Both the position numbers and the translations under genes were made by a program. From assembly GCA_903970555.1 (NCBI GenBank), contig CAJCJD010000244.1:1-64000 (forward strand): a stretch of DNA of 64,000 nt, given 5' to 3'. The notes beneath the pieces were generated by a model. It had not been told where the DNA came from. It ran no database searches and saw only the letters and a list, made by a program, of their open reading frames with translations. Below, one piece after another: positions 31,225 to 40,177 of the stretch (its first letter is position 1; the number at the start of each line of letters is the position of its first letter). Source of the stretch: Vulcanimicrobiota bacterium. Lineage in GTDB: Bacteria; Pseudomonadota; Gammaproteobacteria; Xanthomonadales; Rhodanobacteraceae.

Positions 31225-32542
31225 ATGAACTTTCTTTTCAATCTGGGTTTGGTGATTGCGTTGATCGTATTCCTGGCGATCTGGGTCTATCTGCCGTGGA
31301 TGGTGGTGCTCGCGCTGGTTGTTGTGTTCGCGTTGTGGATGGCGTTGACGCGTCGCGGTCGTCAGGCGGCGTCGGTCACGGCAGTCGGCGTGAGCACACT
31401 GCGCCAACGGCTGGGCTCGTCATCCGTGGTCATCATTGGTATCGCTGGCGTGGTGGGCGTGCTGGTGGCATTGCTCGCGATGGGTGAGGGATATGCCGAG
31501 ACTTTGCGTAAAACCGGTAGCGCCGACACCGCTATCGTGATGCGCGGCGGATCGGCCAGCGAGGTGATGTCGGTCATGGATCACGACAGCATCGTGGTCG
31601 TACCTCAGGCGCCGGGCATCGCACGTGACAACCAGGGCAAACCCGTTGCTTCCCCCGAAATCGTGGTCGCTGCAAATCTTCCGATCAAGGGCAGCACGCC
31701 AGACGATGAAGGCAGCGTGCAGTTGCGCGGTGTGAGCGATCAGGCTTGGGCGGTGCGTCCAAACTTGAAGATCATCGCAGGGCGAAAGTTTACGCCTGGC
31801 ATGCGTGAGTTGATCGTGGGGCAGGGTGCGCAGCGTCAGTTCGCAGGCTTGGAGCCGGGGCACGAGGTGAAGTTGGGCAACCAGACGTGGACGGTGGTTG
31901 GCGTGTTCGCTTCCAACGATGCATTGGATTCCGAAATCTGGGGAGATGCGGACACCGTGGCGTCCACCTATCGTCGCGGCAGCAGTCGTGCTTCTGTGAC
32001 GGTGAAGTTGGCGGATGCGAAGGCGTATGACGGATTCAAAGCGGCCTTGGCGGCCGATCCGCGATTGAAAGTGGATGTCGATACCACGCTCAACTATTTC
32101 AGCAAGCAGTCCGAGGGCATGAGCAAGGTCATGCGAGTGATGGGTATCACGGTCGGCCTGATCATGGCGATCGGTGCCGTGTTCGGCGCGCTCAATACGA
32201 TGTTCGCAGCGGTCGCTTCGCGTGCGCGCGAAATTGCCACCTTGCGAGCGATAGGTTTTCCGCGGTGTGCCGGTCGTGGTGGCAATCATGCTGGAAACGA
32301 TGTTACTGGCTTTGATCGGAGGCTTGCTTGGCGGATTATTCGCGTGGCTGATCTTCAATGGCTATACCGCGTCCACCATGGCAGCAGGGACGGTTGGGCA
32401 GCTGACTTTCGCTTTCAAAGTATCGCCGGAGTTGCTCTGGCAAGGTTTGAAATGGGCGCTAGCGATTGGTTTCGTTGGCGGATTGTTTCCTGCAGTCCGC
32501 GCTGCACGATTGCCGGTCACCACGGCATTGCGTGAGCTGTAA
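31225..32542 (+). pseudogene. FtsX-like ABC permease, disrupted by a one-base frameshift
   Basis: Second permease of the exporter, with two N-terminal hydrophobic segments, a periplasmic domain and the coupling helix REIATLRAIGF. Immediately after that motif the frame changes: the codons read IGFPRCAGRGG, whereas dropping one C in TTTTCCGCGG (32256-32265) restores IGFRGVPVVVAIMLETM and a normal 94-residue C-terminus ending at 32542. As written, 345 native residues are followed by a 91-residue unrelated tail ending at 32535, and the last two membrane helices are lost. This is either an assembly/base-call error or a real inactivating mutation; the rest of the gene is well preserved. Confidence 0.85.
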
Positions 32543-32550
32543 TGTGATGG

Positions 32551-32586
32551 CAGGAGCCTAGGCGTACGCTTGTGCTCCTGTTTCTT
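32551..32586 (+). terminator. Terminator of the ABC exporter operon
   Basis: CAGGAGC (32551-32557) / GCTCCTG (32574-32580) with an inner pairing region and a following TTTCTT. It lies 9 bases after the restored permease stop, which supports the restored frame as the genuine end. Confidence 0.6.
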
Positions 32587-33040
32587 GCAGGCCATCGTGA
32601 CGCTACCGATGGCCTGACTGCGTTTGATATATCGACTCTGTCGAATCCGCTTCTGCATGCATTGCGCCCAGTCTCGGCACGGCCCAGTCAGAGCGACTTG
32701 GGACTTCTGCTCCCCGTTTTTCACATTTATCCGAATTTTCATTTTTCAGATCAGTCCCATTCTTTGGCTTTTTTTGCCGCACTACCATGCGTAACACGTG
32801 CTCAAGCAATGACGAGCCCTGGCGCATTGGATCCCGATTGACAGCCCGATCACCACGGGTGGCATCGACTTCGCGCTAGTTCGCAAGCGTCCAAGGAAAG
32901 GCATTCCTGACTGGATAGTAGTTGTCCGGGTCGAAGGGGTGCTGCCCGGGAAAAATCCATCGTTTGGATTAGCCGGAATCCGAAACATGAGTTGAGCGAA
33001 GCATCTTCGTCACTCGTTACCTGACGAGCGACAAGAGTAG
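32587..33040. other. Long region upstream of fimbrial operon
   Basis: No gene is supported. The first part is AT-rich in patches (CCGTTTTTCACATTTATCC, GGCTTTTTTTGCC). A TTGACA at 32837-32842 has no good -10 partner. From 32966 to 33062 there is a series of small hairpins that ends with an intrinsic terminator, listed separately. Confidence 0.5.
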
Positions 33041-33062
33041 TCCGCCGTGGCGGCGGATTTTT
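32966..33062 (+). promoter_or_regulatory. Structured leader of the major pilin gene ending in an intrinsic terminator
   Basis: Four successive stem-loops: GGATT / AATCC (32966-32981), CGAAG / CTTCG (32997-33009), CTCGT / ACGAG (33013-33028) and TCCGCC / GGCGGA (33041-33057) with TTTTT at 33058-33062. The last is a textbook rho-independent terminator that stops 33 bases before the pilin ATG. It could attenuate the fimbrial operon or end a separate short transcript. It does not match the c-di-GMP riboswitch consensus I know. Confidence 0.5.
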
Positions 33063-33095
33063 AAGTTGAAACCCTCCATCAAGGACTTTAGATAC

Positions 33096-33671
33096 ATGAA
33101 GCACATCAAACTCGCCTCGGCTCTGGTTGTCGCCATGGGCATCGCCGCAGCTGGCGTTGCCAGCGCAGCGGCTTCCACCGGCGGCACCATTACCTTCACC
33201 GGTGCTGTGACCGACGAAACCTGCACGGTCACCGGCGGCGCCGGCACCAACGGTGGCACGGGCAACTTCACTGTGGCACTCGATCCGGTTCCGGCTTCCG
33301 CGCTGGCCGCTGCGACCGATACCGCGGGCAACAAGACGTTCCAGGTCATCATCGGTGGCCCGGGCCAGAGCACCTGCGTGGACGGCAAGGTCGCCACGAT
33401 GTCGTTCGTGCCCTCCAGCCCGCAGATCGATGCGACTACCGGCGCGCTGGTTAACGCGCTCAGCGGTCAGGCGACCAACACGGAAGTGCAGGTGCTCGAC
33501 AGCACCGGTACGGCGATCGCTCTGAACGATCCGGCCAATGGCGTGACGTTCCCGGCGATTGCAAACAACACCGCCACGATCGACTTCCAGGCTCAGTACC
33601 TGGCCGTCAACGGCGGTGCGACCGCTGGTCTGGTTAGCACGGACGTGCTGTACCAGGTTGTCTACAACTAA
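33096..33671 (+). CDS. Major fimbrial subunit (FimA-type pilin)
   Basis: Structural pilin of a chaperone-usher fimbria, 191 residues with a signal peptide ending ASAA (about residue 23). The mature protein has the Ig-like pilin fold: donor-strand region TITFTGAV, cysteines in DETCTV and QSTCVDG that form the family disulfide, and a penultimate tyrosine (YQVVYN) recognised by the chaperone. AAGGA is about 10 bases from ATG 33096; an upstream TTG in frame is less likely. First gene of a seven-gene operon and followed by a 13-bp hairpin. Confidence 0.92.
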   Translation: MKHIKLASALVVAMGIAAAGVASAAASTGGTITFTGAVTDETCTVTGGAGTNGGTGNFTVALDPVPASALAAATDTAGNKTFQVIIGGPGQSTCVDGKVATMSFVPSSPQIDATTGALVNALSGQATNTEVQVLDSTGTAIALNDPANGVTFPAIANNTATIDFQAQYLAVNGGATAGLVSTDVLYQVVYN

Positions 33672-33696
33672 TCGGTTGTAGAGCAATCTCTCCCTA

Positions 33697-33727
33697 TCTC
33701 GGTGACCGCCTTGCGCGGTCACCGAGA
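33697..33727 (+). terminator. Intercistronic hairpin after major pilin
   Basis: Perfect 13-bp stem from TCTCGGTGACCGC to GCGGTCACCGAGA with a CTTGC loop, 25 bases after the pilin stop and 17 before the chaperone start. No strong U tract follows, so partial termination or protection of the pilin mRNA from 3' decay is more likely than full stop. This would give excess pilin over chaperone and usher. Confidence 0.75.
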
Positions 33728-33744
33728 CATTCTTGAGGTGATAC

Positions 33745-34488
33745 ATGAGCAACGTAATGCGCTATGCCATGGCAGGCTGTCTTTTACTCGCGGGCGTGTT
33801 TGCAGGCCGTAGCGAAGCCAGCGTGGTGATCGGCGGCACGCGTGTCGTGTATCCGGCCCAAGACAAGGAAGTTACCGTCAAGCTCACCAACGAGGGCAAT
33901 CAACCTGCGCTCGTGCAGGTATGGCTCGACGACGGCGATGACAAATCCACGCCGGACACGGCGAAAGTGCCTTTCACTGTGATGCCCCCGGTTTTCCGCA
34001 TCGATCCGTCCAAAGGACAGGCGGTGCGTCTGGTTTACACCAAAGAACCGTTGCCGACCGATAAGGAAAGCCTGTTCTGGGTGAACGTGCTCGAAGTGCC
34101 ACCGAAAGCTGCCGAAGATGGCAAGAACCATCTGCAGTTTGCGTTTCGCACGCGCATCAAATTGTTTTTCCGTCCGTCCGGTTTATCGGGCGACGTAGCG
34201 ACGGCTCGCGACAAGCTCACATGGAAAGTGGTGCCCAATTCGAAGGGCAAAGGTTTTGCAGTGCAGGCGACCAACCCTACGCCTTACTTCGTGTCGTTTG
34301 CGCATGTTGGCGTGAAAGAAGGTGACCGCGAGATCAACGGCGATGGCGGCATGGTTGCGCCGGGCTCGTCCACGGTTTTCCCAATTGAAAATCTCAACAG
34401 CGCTCCCGGTGCGGGAGTGCAAGTGGTGTTCACCACCATCAATGACTTTGGCGCGCTCGACAAGGTTGTAAAGCCGCTCGGTCAGTAA
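33745..34488 (+). CDS. Periplasmic fimbrial chaperone (PapD/FimC family)
   Basis: A 247-residue periplasmic chaperone that completes the Ig fold of pilins by donor-strand complementation. Signal peptide to about residue 26, then SVVIGGTRVVYPAQDKEVTV (edge strand with Arg and Tyr), FTVMPPVFRIDPSKGQAVRL, and the family signature ESLFWVNVLEVPPK. GAGGTGA precedes the ATG. Followed by a short hairpin and the usher gene. Confidence 0.95.
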   Translation: MSNVMRYAMAGCLLLAGVFAGRSEASVVIGGTRVVYPAQDKEVTVKLTNEGNQPALVQVWLDDGDDKSTPDTAKVPFTVMPPVFRIDPSKGQAVRLVYTKEPLPTDKESLFWVNVLEVPPKAAEDGKNHLQFAFRTRIKLFFRPSGLSGDVATARDKLTWKVVPNSKGKGFAVQATNPTPYFVSFAHVGVKEGDREINGDGGMVAPGSSTVFPIENLNSAPGAGVQVVFTTINDFGALDKVVKPLGQ

Positions 34489-34534: not shown

Positions 34535-34565
34535 CAGGGGCCTTGTGTTTCGCCGGGAGGTCGTT

Positions 34566-37424
34566 GTGTCCACCAAGCAGTCCCGCAAATCGGAACGTAT
34601 CCGTGCTGTGGCGCCCATGCGTCAGAGACTGCTATCGGTTTGGATCATCGCGGCACTCGTTTCGCCCTCTTTGTTACATGCGGCGGCAGCTGACCCAGCG
34701 GTCGACCCATCATCGGCTGATCCTGCCGCAGCGACGGCCGTGACCTTCGATGCGGATTTCTTTCCCGCCGGCATGGCGCCGAAAGTAGATCTCTCGCGCT
34801 TTGAAAAGAGCGGCGCCGTTGCACCGGGTACCTATCGCGGCGACGTGATTCTAAATCGCGTGTGGCGTGCCAACACCGATATCGTTTTGGACGTTGCTCC
34901 GGGCGGCAAAGATGTGTTGCCTTGCTTCGACAAGGCTTCGCTCACGAGTTATGGCGTCGACTTGAAAAAAGTCGCTGCTGATACAACGCATCCCGGCAAA
35001 AAGCCTATTCCGGATGGTCGTTTCTGCAGTCCACTGAGCGATTACATTCCCGGCGCGACCACTAGTTTCGACGGTGGCGAACAAACGCTCACCATTGAAG
35101 TACCGCAAATCTATTCGTCGCACAATGCGCGCGGATGGGTGGATCCTTCGGAATGGAATAGCGGTATCAACGCGGCCGTCGTCGGTTACACCGCCAACTT
35201 CTACCGCAGCGACGATGGCAATCGTTCGCTCGCCAGCGGCTACCTTGGCTTGAACCTGTCCCAGCACATCGGTTCGTGGAGCATCAATCATACCGGCTCA
35301 CTCATGTGGATTGAGGGCCAGGGGAACAAATACCAGGCCAGCTCCACCTTCTTGCAGCACGACATCCCCTCGGTGCACGCGCAAATGCTGGTGGGTGACT
35401 CGTTCACGCAGGGCGATCTGTTCGATAGCGTGCGTCTGCGCGGTGTGCGCCTCTTTAGCGACGATCGCATGCTGCCCAATTCATTGCGCGGCTATGCGCC
35501 TGTCGTGCGTGGCGTGGCAGATACCAATGCGCATCTGATCATTCGCCAACATGGCTATGTGGTGTACGACACCAATGTGGCACCCGGTCCATACGTCATC
35601 GATGATTTGTCGCCCACGGGCTACGGTGGCGATCTGGACGTGGAGCAGATCGAAGCCGATGGCCGCGTCAAGCGCTTCACGGTGCCGTTTGCTGCGGTGC
35701 CCATGTCGTTGCGCCCAGGCATGACACGCTGGAGCCTGGCTGCCGGCAAGATCGATCAGCTCAACCTGAGGGATGAGCCGACCATTTTGCAGGGCACGTA
35801 TCAACGTGGTCTCACCAACCTGGTTACGGCATATGGCGGCGCGACACTGGCCACCGATTACGCGTCAGTGATCGGCGGTGCGGCGTTCAATACCAAAGTG
35901 GGTGCTTTCGCGGCCGACGTTACCGAAGCACGCAATCGCGTGCCCACACGGCCGGCGACGACAGGCACCAGCGTAAGGCTGAGCTACAACAAGAACCTGG
36001 TCGACACCGGCACCAACTTTGCAGTGGCAGCTTACCGGTACTCCACCAGCGGTTACGTCGGGCTGCAGGACGCTACGTATATGCGTGACGCCGCAGCGCG
36101 CGGCGAGAACCCTGATGCCATTCAGCGCCAGCGCAATCGCGTGGATGTGAACATCAGCCAGAATCTTGGCAATACCTACGGCCAGTTCTTTCTCACCGGT
36201 TCCGTGCTCGATTATTGGAACGCGCGCGGTCGCCAGGTGAATTTCAGCGCGGGTTACAGTAATCGCTGGAAATTGCTCAACTACAGTATCAGCGCACAAC
36301 GTACGCGTGACACGACGATCGCAAATGCGGCGTATACCGGCCCGATTACCGACACCGTTCCCGGCAATATCGCTGGGGCGTTGGGTGCGCCCACCACGCC
36401 AGGTCGCGTCGATACCAGCATTTTTCTCACGGTTTCGATGCCGCTGGGCCGGAGCGCGCATGCGCCGATCTTCAATGCACTAACCAGCCATTCGCAGCAA
36501 GGCGGCAGCAACGAACAAGCCAGCGCCAGTGGCACACTAGGCGACGAGCAACGTCTGGCTTATGGCGCCACCCTAAGTCATGACGCGAGCACGACTAACG
36601 CAAGCGTGAACACCCAATACAACGGCAGTCACGGCAACTACGCAGCCAGCTACAGCTACGGCACCAACTATTCACAGGCGAGTGTCGGCACCTCGGGCTC
36701 GTTGATACTGCATGCAGGGGGCTACACTTTCTCGCCGCCCACGGGCGATACCATTGCGTTGATACACGCACCCAACGCCAAAGGTGCGCGAGTCCTGAGC
36801 GGGCAAGGTTCCGTGGTGGATGGGAACGGTTATGCCGTCGTGCCGTATTTGCAGCCTTATCAGCTCAACACCGTCGAGCTCGATCCGAAGGACTCAAGCA
36901 CCAGTGTGGAGCTGAAGTCCACCAAGGAAAGTGTGGCGCCGCGCGCGGGTACGGTGACGCTACTCAACTATGAAACCACCAGTGGCCGCGCTTTGCTCGT
37001 TGAAACCAGCTTGCCCGATGGGCGTCCCGTTCCATTCGGCGCCAACGTGCTGGATGAGAAAGGCGACAACATTGGCGTCGCCGGTCAGGCGAGCCGCCTC
37101 TACATTCGCGATATGCAATCGTCCGGTGTCATCACCGTGCAGTGGGGCGACGGCGCGGCAGATTCGTGTCAGATCACTTTGCAGCTCAAGCCGCAGCCAA
37201 AAGGTGTGCGTACGGATATGGAAAAAGTCCAGGCCGCCTGCGTTTTCAAAACTACGGCGGCTGCTCCGACCGGACAGGCAACAGGCGAGAAGCCCGTGGC
37301 GATGCTCGATGCCGGGCAACGCCATACCGGTATCGAAAGCGTTTTGCCTCTGCCTAGGAGTCGGTCTGAATGCTTTAGGCTCAAACGCGATCCGGCCGGT
37401 TTGCTAGAGAGGTTTACAGCATGA
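34566..37424 (+). CDS. Outer-membrane fimbrial usher
   Basis: A 952-residue outer-membrane usher that secretes and orders fimbrial subunits. Signal peptide (WIIAALVSPSLLHAAAAD), N-terminal periplasmic domain starting VTFDADFFPAGMAPKVDLSR with the conserved PGTYRGDVILN, the 24-strand barrel with plug domain (PYVIDDLSPTGYGGDLDVEQ), and C-terminal domains. The tail after the last cysteine (about 45 residues, rich in Arg near the end) is longer than usual. GGGAGG is 5 bases from GTG 34566, better than the GTG at 34545. The stop overlaps the adhesin start (ATGA). Confidence 0.95.
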   Translation: MSTKQSRKSERIRAVAPMRQRLLSVWIIAALVSPSLLHAAAADPAVDPSSADPAAATAVTFDADFFPAGMAPKVDLSRFEKSGAVAPGTYRGDVILNRVWRANTDIVLDVAPGGKDVLPCFDKASLTSYGVDLKKVAADTTHPGKKPIPDGRFCSPLSDYIPGATTSFDGGEQTLTIEVPQIYSSHNARGWVDPSEWNSGINAAVVGYTANFYRSDDGNRSLASGYLGLNLSQHIGSWSINHTGSLMWIEGQGNKYQASSTFLQHDIPSVHAQMLVGDSFTQGDLFDSVRLRGVRLFSDDRMLPNSLRGYAPVVRGVADTNAHLIIRQHGYVVYDTNVAPGPYVIDDLSPTGYGGDLDVEQIEADGRVKRFTVPFAAVPMSLRPGMTRWSLAAGKIDQLNLRDEPTILQGTYQRGLTNLVTAYGGATLATDYASVIGGAAFNTKVGAFAADVTEARNRVPTRPATTGTSVRLSYNKNLVDTGTNFAVAAYRYSTSGYVGLQDATYMRDAAARGENPDAIQRQRNRVDVNISQNLGNTYGQFFLTGSVLDYWNARGRQVNFSAGYSNRWKLLNYSISAQRTRDTTIANAAYTGPITDTVPGNIAGALGAPTTPGRVDTSIFLTVSMPLGRSAHAPIFNALTSHSQQGGSNEQASASGTLGDEQRLAYGATLSHDASTTNASVNTQYNGSHGNYAASYSYGTNYSQASVGTSGSLILHAGGYTFSPPTGDTIALIHAPNAKGARVLSGQGSVVDGNGYAVVPYLQPYQLNTVELDPKDSSTSVELKSTKESVAPRAGTVTLLNYETTSGRALLVETSLPDGRPVPFGANVLDEKGDNIGVAGQASRLYIRDMQSSGVITVQWGDGAADSCQITLQLKPQPKGVRTDMEKVQAACVFKTTAAAPTGQATGEKPVAMLDAGQRHTGIESVLPLPRSRSECFRLKRDPAGLLERFTA

Positions 37425-39138: not shown

Positions 39139-39654
39139 ATGCGTATATTCGCTTCGAAACTTGCTATTGCGATGGGCTTGTTGTGCATCGCTTCGTTTGT
39201 ACAAGCTCAAACTACTTTCAACATTACCGGCACAATTACTGTGGGCACCTGCACCATCGCCGTGAACAGTGGCAGCCCGGTCAATGTGGGTACCTTTAAC
39301 TCCAACTCGTTCACGGGCAGCTTCCAGTCGGGCTTTATTCCTAACTTCAATCTGTCCTACAGCGCCTGCGCGGAGGGCATTGAAACCCTGACGCTTAAGC
39401 TTACGGGCACGGCCGATAAAACGACGGGCGGTAACGTCAACTATTGGGATAGCGGTCTTCCAGGTGCGCCCTTCGAGTTGAAGGATGCCAAGGCCAACGT
39501 GGACCTGCCGCCGAGCGGCGCAACGTTGATTACGATTGCAAATCCTGGCATCAGTGGCACGTATCCGTTGACGGCACAGTTCCATCAGACCGGCACCTTG
39601 ACCAAAACCGGTGTAGGCACCGCCACGGTCACCGTAAACGCCACCTATAACTAA
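39139..39654 (+). CDS. Minor fimbrial subunit 2
   Basis: A 171-residue pilin-fold protein: signal peptide ending VQAQ (about residue 21), TFNITGTITVGTCTIAV with the first cysteine, SYSACAEGIETL with the second, and a penultimate Tyr (NATYN). AGGAC lies upstream of the ATG. Adaptor or terminator subunit of the fimbria; its exact position in the fibre cannot be read from sequence. Confidence 0.87.
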   Translation: MRIFASKLAIAMGLLCIASFVQAQTTFNITGTITVGTCTIAVNSGSPVNVGTFNSNSFTGSFQSGFIPNFNLSYSACAEGIETLTLKLTGTADKTTGGNVNYWDSGLPGAPFELKDAKANVDLPPSGATLITIANPGISGTYPLTAQFHQTGTLTKTGVGTATVTVNATYN

Positions 39655-39667
39655 GGCGGGATTGCAT

Positions 39668-40177
39668 ATGTTGCGCAAGCTCCTAGTCATTTTGGGGATA
39701 GTTGTGGCGGCTGCGCATGCCTGCACGGCTGTTGCGCAGACGCAATTCGACATTACTGGCGAGATCGATCCAGGTACTTGCCAATGGACAGTCGGCGACG
39801 ACAATCGCACCGTTGTATTCGATCCTATCGATGCCAGCGTGCTCAACGCGCAAGGCTCGGGTAACTTTCAAACATTCAGTCTCACCCTCCAAAACTGTGC
39901 GCCAGGAATGACCAGCGCAACGTTCGTGTTTGGAGGAACACCAGATACCAATGATCCGTTGCGTTTTCTCAATGCCGGTAGCGCGCAAGGCACAGCGGTG
40001 GAACTAGAGTCGGCAGATGGTTTGAACATTGGTGCAAACGGCACCAATGACTCGCGCACGATTCCGGTTGTTGATAACGGGGCAGTGATTGCTTTGCGCG
40101 CTGGTTACTGGCGCGTGGGCCCGGTCGCGGCGGGCAGTGTCCAGTCTGTTGCTACGGTTTCGGTGACTTACCAGTAA
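39668..40177 (+). CDS. Minor fimbrial subunit 3
   Basis: A 169-residue pilin-fold protein: signal peptide ending AVAQT, FDITGEIDPGTCQWTV and LQNCAPGM carrying the disulfide cysteines, and a penultimate Tyr (VSVTYQ). ATG 39668 is preferred to the in-frame TTG at 39662 because of spacing from AAGGCGGG. Last gene of the fimbrial operon; a 9-bp hairpin begins one base after its stop. Confidence 0.87.
   Translation: MLRKLLVILGIVVAAAHACTAVAQTQFDITGEIDPGTCQWTVGDDNRTVVFDPIDASVLNAQGSGNFQTFSLTLQNCAPGMTSATFVFGGTPDTNDPLRFLNAGSAQGTAVELESADGLNIGANGTNDSRTIPVVDNGAVIALRAGYWRVGPVAAGSVQSVATVSVTYQ

Follow-up and report, generated by a model that had tools for sequence, protein, structure and literature searches.

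The window (the whole stretch of DNA that was analysed, 64,000 nucleotides) comes from the family Rhodanobacteraceae, as do the relatives with which it was compared, and carries on its forward strand an operon for a chaperone-usher pilus. The gene for the major pilin (33096..33671, ATG at 33096), a 191-aa protein of the Fimbrial family (PF00419), comes first and is followed by genes for a PapD-like pilus chaperone (33745..34488), an outer-membrane usher (34545..37424), and four further small pilus-type proteins that extend to position 40177. Three of these four match Fimbrial, and the one encoded at 39139-39654 has no Pfam match. The motif AAGGA on the forward strand (33081..33085), identical in two relatives, L010 and L011, is presumably the ribosome-binding site of the pilin gene. 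A sigma-70 promoter scan of positions 32000-34000 returned no site on the forward strand and a single site on the reverse strand. The upstream gene, encoding a MacB/FtsX-type permease (31225-32542), is broken across two frames, one of 436 aa that corresponds to FtsX positions 2-40 and one of 91 aa (32267-32542) that corresponds to positions 46-119; this split is a frameshift or an assembly error.

Two adjacent hairpins, designated H1 and H2, lie in the leader of the pilin gene, on the same strand. H1 (33004..33036), conserved in shape, has a UCUU/AAGA base, a bulged C, and a long irregular stem. H2 (33039..33059), the terminator stem, is a G+C-rich hairpin of 9 bp with 6 G-C pairs, a loop of 3, and the core UCCGCC/GGCGGA, and it ends in a tract of five T (U5 in the RNA, 33058..33062), two of which are within the stem. 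The original prediction had placed a terminator 33 bases ahead of the pilin ATG, and H2 with its U5 tract is found at that distance. Of the four successive stem-loops that had been proposed there, the third and fourth hold up, as a single conserved element (33004-33059), and the first two do not: on visual inspection, neither L010 nor L011 retains the first (GGATT/AATCC, 32966-32981), and the second (GAAG/CTTC, 32998-33008), kept in L010, shares bases with H1 and thus competes with it. The segment 33003-33060 folds with a z-score of -4.8, a stability equaled by none of 200 shuffled sequences, and the whole stretch 32966-33062 has a z-score of -1.99, with 9 of 200 shuffles folding equally well. 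A stricter terminator scan of both strands of the 64-kb window detected 5 sites vs 2.25 (sd 1.4, max 5) in 20 shuffles, and therefore the H2 hairpin by itself is within chance; its conservation in relatives (L010 and L011 have almost the same terminator, tail, and ribosome-binding region), together with the fold z-score of 33003-33060, lifts it above that level. An invertible promoter was considered and rejected: an inverted-repeat search of 32540-33100, non-exhaustive because it missed H2, returned only two hairpins (32551-32616), located directly past the upstream gene.

When the 125 bases that precede the ATG were folded for 26 pilin leaders, many orthologs showed a common layout, namely, H1, a spacer of 1-5 bases, and then H2, the core of which is CGCC/GGCG-like in most leaders. 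In a first alignment of 13 leaders (A1), the H2 region and leaders L058, L072, and L046 were misaligned, and 8 of the 13 (L046, L047, L057, L058, and L072 were dropped) make up alignment A2, in which the base of H1 is shifted out of register in three rows, those from the clade of the window. Across A2, 90.2% of the cells are paired, 11 of the 21 pairs have changed on both sides (a count reached by 1 of 500 shuffles), and the covariation score is 0.430, against 0.231 for shuffled alignments and 0.08-0.16 when slid, although these counts are biased towards structure because the rows were picked after the folds had been seen. The covariance check in relatives that had been proposed for this leader thereby gave H1-H2 a score above all 500 shuffles.

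Alignment A4 and the model derived from it, R2, are a test more independent than A2. The six rows of A4, five from A2 plus L047, were picked by eye and exclude the window, L010, and L011; in all six, H1 is a 32-base hairpin with the base CUUUG/CRAAG. Considering H1 only, 92.9% of the cells are paired, both sides have changed in 9 of 14 pairs, and the score is 0.552 vs 0.270 in shuffles (reached by 0 of 500). When R2 was run on 21 sources (131,122 bases), the window ranked first, with its best match at 33003-33066 (29.4 bits, E 2.4e-6), and was followed by L010 and L011. At 18 pilin loci outside the window's clade, R2 matched the expected site weakly in three (L057, E 0.025; L046, E 0.43; L058, E 3) and produced no match there in the other 15. 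The model R1, run on 233 genomes of the family, assigned 52-71 bits to its 8 training leaders and 29.0 bits to the held-out L047; two terminator-like sites elsewhere scored higher than L047 (31.4 and 31.0 bits), and hence the R1 score cannot separate distant members from ordinary terminators. Of the R1 matches, 22 lower-scoring loci (L114-L135) were inspected and judged on the basis of the element and the reading frame that follows it: L116 is L047, L130 and L132 yielded no element, and none of the remaining 19, which comprise terminator-like hairpins, repeats, and coding sequence, resembled a pilin leader. A few additional R1 matches represent the same leaders read on the opposite strand. In many leaders of orthologous Rhodanobacteraceae pilins, the sequence of the predicted pair changes, but its shape and place are retained, and these comparisons delineate H1-H2 as a predicted, conserved RNA element of the 5' untranslated region of the major-pilin mRNA.

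The position of the element is constrained as well. Located by hand, H1 starts 74-92 nt upstream of the ATG in 18 leaders (including L014, L050, and L061, where H1 is doubtful), and H2 ends 27-43 nt upstream of it in 15. Among 76 non-redundant pilin leaders (from 88), the segment -95..-25 has a fold z-score of -2 or lower in 22, compared with 8, 10, 3, and 8 of 76 for four segments further upstream and 4 of 76 for coding sequence. Within the ortholog group, this holds for 11 of 15 leaders, with L048, L050, L066, and L072 as exceptions; a clear hairpin pair is absent from L048 and L050 (pilin identity 70% and 57%, respectively), and L066 has two hairpins that are placed differently. In the sister family f2, the 5' segment reaches this threshold in none of 14 loci, which represent 14 of the 17 matches listed (G343, G410, and G419 were left out) and include several near-identical ones; thus, the 5' element appears to be confined to this ortholog group, and the 5' hairpin seems dispensable for pilin expression in general. 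When 251 leader bases were compared with the 233 family genomes using blastn, three matches were obtained, the window's own and those in G010 (89%) and G013 (75%), each extending to a pilin ortholog. The pilin of G009 (L009) is 94% identical to that of the window, and its leader has no blastn match; this leader still contains two hairpins, the second being TTCGCC/GGCGAA followed by ATTTTCTC, and its mismatch with the window's leader suggests leader replacement or very fast change.

The tail that follows H2 is less general than the hairpin pair. The form of an intrinsic terminator, a G+C-rich stem with a U-rich tail, is present in the window, L010, and L011, and the strongest tails are those of the window and the two relatives with an alignable leader. 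At least five T occur among the 8 bases past the hand-located H2 in 5 of 15 relatives (L008, which is the window, L009, L010, L011, and L015) and 0-4 in the remaining 10; a terminator score, likewise calculated at hand-picked positions, is positive in 5 of the same 15 (L008, L010, L011, L015, and L051). Terminator-like sites, defined by a stem of at least 6, at least 4 G-C pairs, and at least 4 T, are found at -100..-1 in 12 of the 76 pilin leaders vs 0.9 in shuffles, and at -200..-100 in 1 of the 76; much of this excess goes with an excess of hairpins as such. Tails with at least 4 T follow 10 of 57 leader hairpins, compared with 7.6% of random 8-mers and 2 of 57 in a mirrored control, so U-rich tails are commoner than expected past leader hairpins, which favors some role in termination. 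Taken together, the tail counts indicate that U tails are mildly in excess overall and strong in the window's clade, where termination is plausible; it is probably not a function shared across the group. The conserved feature is the predicted hairpin pair rather than the terminator.

Further upstream lies an element of the TTTTCAG type (32743..32760, forward strand), a possible promoter-proximal operator. We first spotted this motif by eye and then counted it: of 76 pilin upstream regions (600 nt), 16 carry it on the coding strand and 3 on the opposite strand, and it is located at -92 to -126 in L077, L088, L091, L096, L098, and L105. It is a possible binding site of a fimbrial regulator, and if it marks the promoter, the leader of the window's pilin gene would be about 300 nt long. 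Other pilin groups have leaders of their own. One group (L019-L022, L026-L030, L033, and L035) shares a similar leader, GCAAGGCGTGGGCC..GGCCCAC, just before the ATG, diverged in L030; it comes after a TTGGCCYGATTGTTGCT-like sequence, which we take to resemble a sigma-54 promoter, and looks like a second structured pilin leader. In another group (L076, L078, L080, L087, L094, L095, L102, and L103), inspection by eye revealed, about 35-55 nt before the ATG, a short hairpin the arms of which change (for example, ACGGCCC..GGGCCGT).

On the other side of the pilin gene, a 12-13-bp hairpin (33697..33727, forward strand, z -7.2) separates it from the chaperone gene. Of the 42 non-redundant loci with enough sequence downstream of the pilin gene, 36 have a perfect stem of 9 bp or more within 90 nt past the stop (2.4 in shuffles), and 22 have one of 12 bp or more (0.1 in shuffles). 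The sister family f2 has a 3' hairpin with a stem of at least 10 bp in 13 of 14 loci. Across related loci, the pilin-chaperone hairpin keeps its shape while its sequence changes. With a hairpin pair before the pilin gene and a stem after it, the pilin message is bracketed by hairpins.

Given that this bracketing is papA-like, stabilization or processing is taken as the most likely function: H1-H2 would be an mRNA-stabilizing or processing element that raises the output of the major pilin, a reading that has, in our estimate, about an even chance of being correct. We infer steps of processing, stabilization, and partial termination. Transcription would yield a long leader that is subsequently cleaved or trimmed upstream of H1, and the hairpin pair, sitting just outside the initiating ribosome, would shield the pilin message from decay that starts on its 5' side. 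Together with the strong 3' hairpin, H1-H2 would raise major-pilin output above that of the chaperone, usher, and adhesin encoded in the same operon. In the window's clade, H2 with its U5 tail may additionally terminate some of the transcripts, setting a basal level. A point against stabilization is that papA-type protection needs a hairpin near the 5' end of the message, whereas the conserved stretches further upstream suggest a long leader.

The main rival, possible although rather unlikely, is attenuation in the window's clade, whereby most transcripts would stop at H2 and a signal (a P1-bound ligand, a protein, or an RNA acting in trans) would let polymerase through and so switch the fimbrial operon. 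Consistent with such a switch, the U5 terminator is conserved in the window, L010, and L011, terminator-like sites are enriched close to pilin start codons, and P1 (32900..32943, forward strand), a long hairpin or DNA dyad, is found, when its 32-base core is searched with up to 3 mismatches, in 3 of the 233 family genomes, which are also those carrying the U5 terminator. RNAalifold predicts P1, H1, and H2 from the three leaders, and the fold z-scores of P1 are -2.3, -2.7, and -1.3. Because the three genomes share one alignable leader, however, the association of P1 with the terminator amounts to one event, and because P1 is almost invariant in sequence, a protein-binding DNA dyad fits as well as an RNA. 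A weak antiterminator candidate, AAAAATCC (32951..32958, forward strand), can pair with GGATTTTT of H2 in all three leaders, with 3 variable pairs; as a second candidate, TGCTGCC can pair with GGCGGCG. These partners, one of 8 bp (mostly A-U) and one of 7 bp, take the 3' arm of H2 and the U-tract and would form after the terminator, whereas for the 5' arm, the usual target of antiterminators, no conserved partner longer than 5 bp was found in the leaders. With candidates this weak, the search yielded no convincing antiterminator. The same applies to a leader peptide in the window, L010, and L011, where the weak candidate is a short frame of 18, 18, and 16 codons, respectively, in the same place; between the window and L010, 6 of 10 changed codons are non-synonymous, L011 differs almost throughout, and a ribosome-binding site filter retained the frame in L010 and L011 only. 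Also counting against attenuation is the positive terminator score in just 5 of 15 relatives. The attenuation or riboregulation that had been suggested survives in part, as a structured leader with a terminator; for an antiterminator and a leader peptide there are weak candidates, and the U tail is not common to the group.

Alternatively, the hairpins might serve translation, keeping the region ahead of the ribosome-binding site defined for standby ribosomes or for a repressor such as CsrA. The tight spacing between H2 and the ATG in the 15 leaders fits this possibility, which we regard as unlikely: the ribosome-binding region is partly paired in some folds, for example, the 125-base fold of the window, and the sequence fits stabilization equally. 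Distinctly unlikely, too, is a composite history in which an ancestral stabilizer of the pilin mRNA became a true attenuator in the window's clade, with H2 gaining the U-tract and P1 serving as a sensor; under this scenario, P1, some 100 nt upstream, would sense a ligand, a protein, or a trans-acting RNA and gate the entry of polymerase.

A search of the whole window against Rfam at gathering scores matched one tRNA and nothing else, and at relaxed E-values, the region 32540-33200 produced two sub-threshold matches, neither to a riboswitch, in agreement with the original prediction, which saw no match to the c-di-GMP riboswitch pattern. Membership in the Pseudomonas sRNA P9 family (RF00624) was rejected, as its 17.3 bits (E 0.42) fall short of the gathering score of 43. 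This sub-threshold resemblance and the arrangement of H1, H2, and U5, which is reminiscent of the 3' end of a small RNA, are compatible with an independent small RNA that would start upstream and end at H2, with the pilin gene starting further down. Such an RNA is nevertheless very improbable, given that all three leader matches among the 233 family genomes reach orthologous pilins, that 10 of 15 relatives have fewer than 5 T among the 8 bases past H2, and that a separate pilin promoter would have just 33 nt between terminator and ATG; of this alternative, raised already in the original prediction, the terminator stands and little else supports it. That H2 is a chance terminator-like hairpin in a G+C-rich genome, as the strict scan of the window would allow, is hardly credible in the face of the covariation and the held-out R2 match.

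Stabilization or processing of the pilin message, the reading that we prefer, concerns a system with an inherent imbalance, as chaperone-usher pili require far more of the major subunit than of the other parts. The examples of pilin control at the RNA level in the passages cited here come from E. coli. Bracketing hairpins in Rhodanobacteraceae, which are soil gammaproteobacteria, would point to a wider distribution of this solution, and H1-H2, as an element with covariation support, can be tested with simple reporters.

H1-H2 itself is undescribed in the literature searched and in Rfam, and it is a known kind of element. It resembles P9 in having two hairpins, the second with a U tail. The window, L010, and L011 share the combination of H2 and U5 with intrinsic terminators and attenuators; unlike in typical attenuators, the group as a whole does not conserve the U-tract, and a sensor, an antiterminator, and a leader peptide are not established. 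The closest parallel is the 5' stem-loop of the papA mRNA of E. coli P pili, reportedly characterized by Bricker and Belasco in 1999. According to one account, RNase E cleaves upstream of the papA hairpin, and the 5' structure protects papA, the 3' end of which is protected by a terminator structure (PMC5927463); the 5' stem-loop study also appears in the references of PMC3997798. The layout found here, with a hairpin upstream of the major-pilin ribosome-binding site in a chaperone-usher operon and a pilin message that ends in a stable structure, is like that of papA as described in these sources, where the outcome is a long-lived major-pilin mRNA. The papBA hairpin is located between two genes and exposed by RNase E cleavage, whereas the leader examined here is preceded by no known gene and has two hairpins, one of them a possible terminator. 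Passages from related work mention a thermometer in the psaE 5'UTR (PMC9820224), list papA-I and CFA-I among the operons reported to undergo selective processing and stabilization (PMC4423207), and cite differential decay of the CFA/I fimbrial operon (PMC5927463, PMC4423207). Whereas the CFA/I-type cases, as presented there, are built on RNA measurements of polycistronic mRNA and ours on comparative evidence, H1-H2 and the 3' hairpin would join them as message stem-loops that set the stoichiometry of a pilus or complex.
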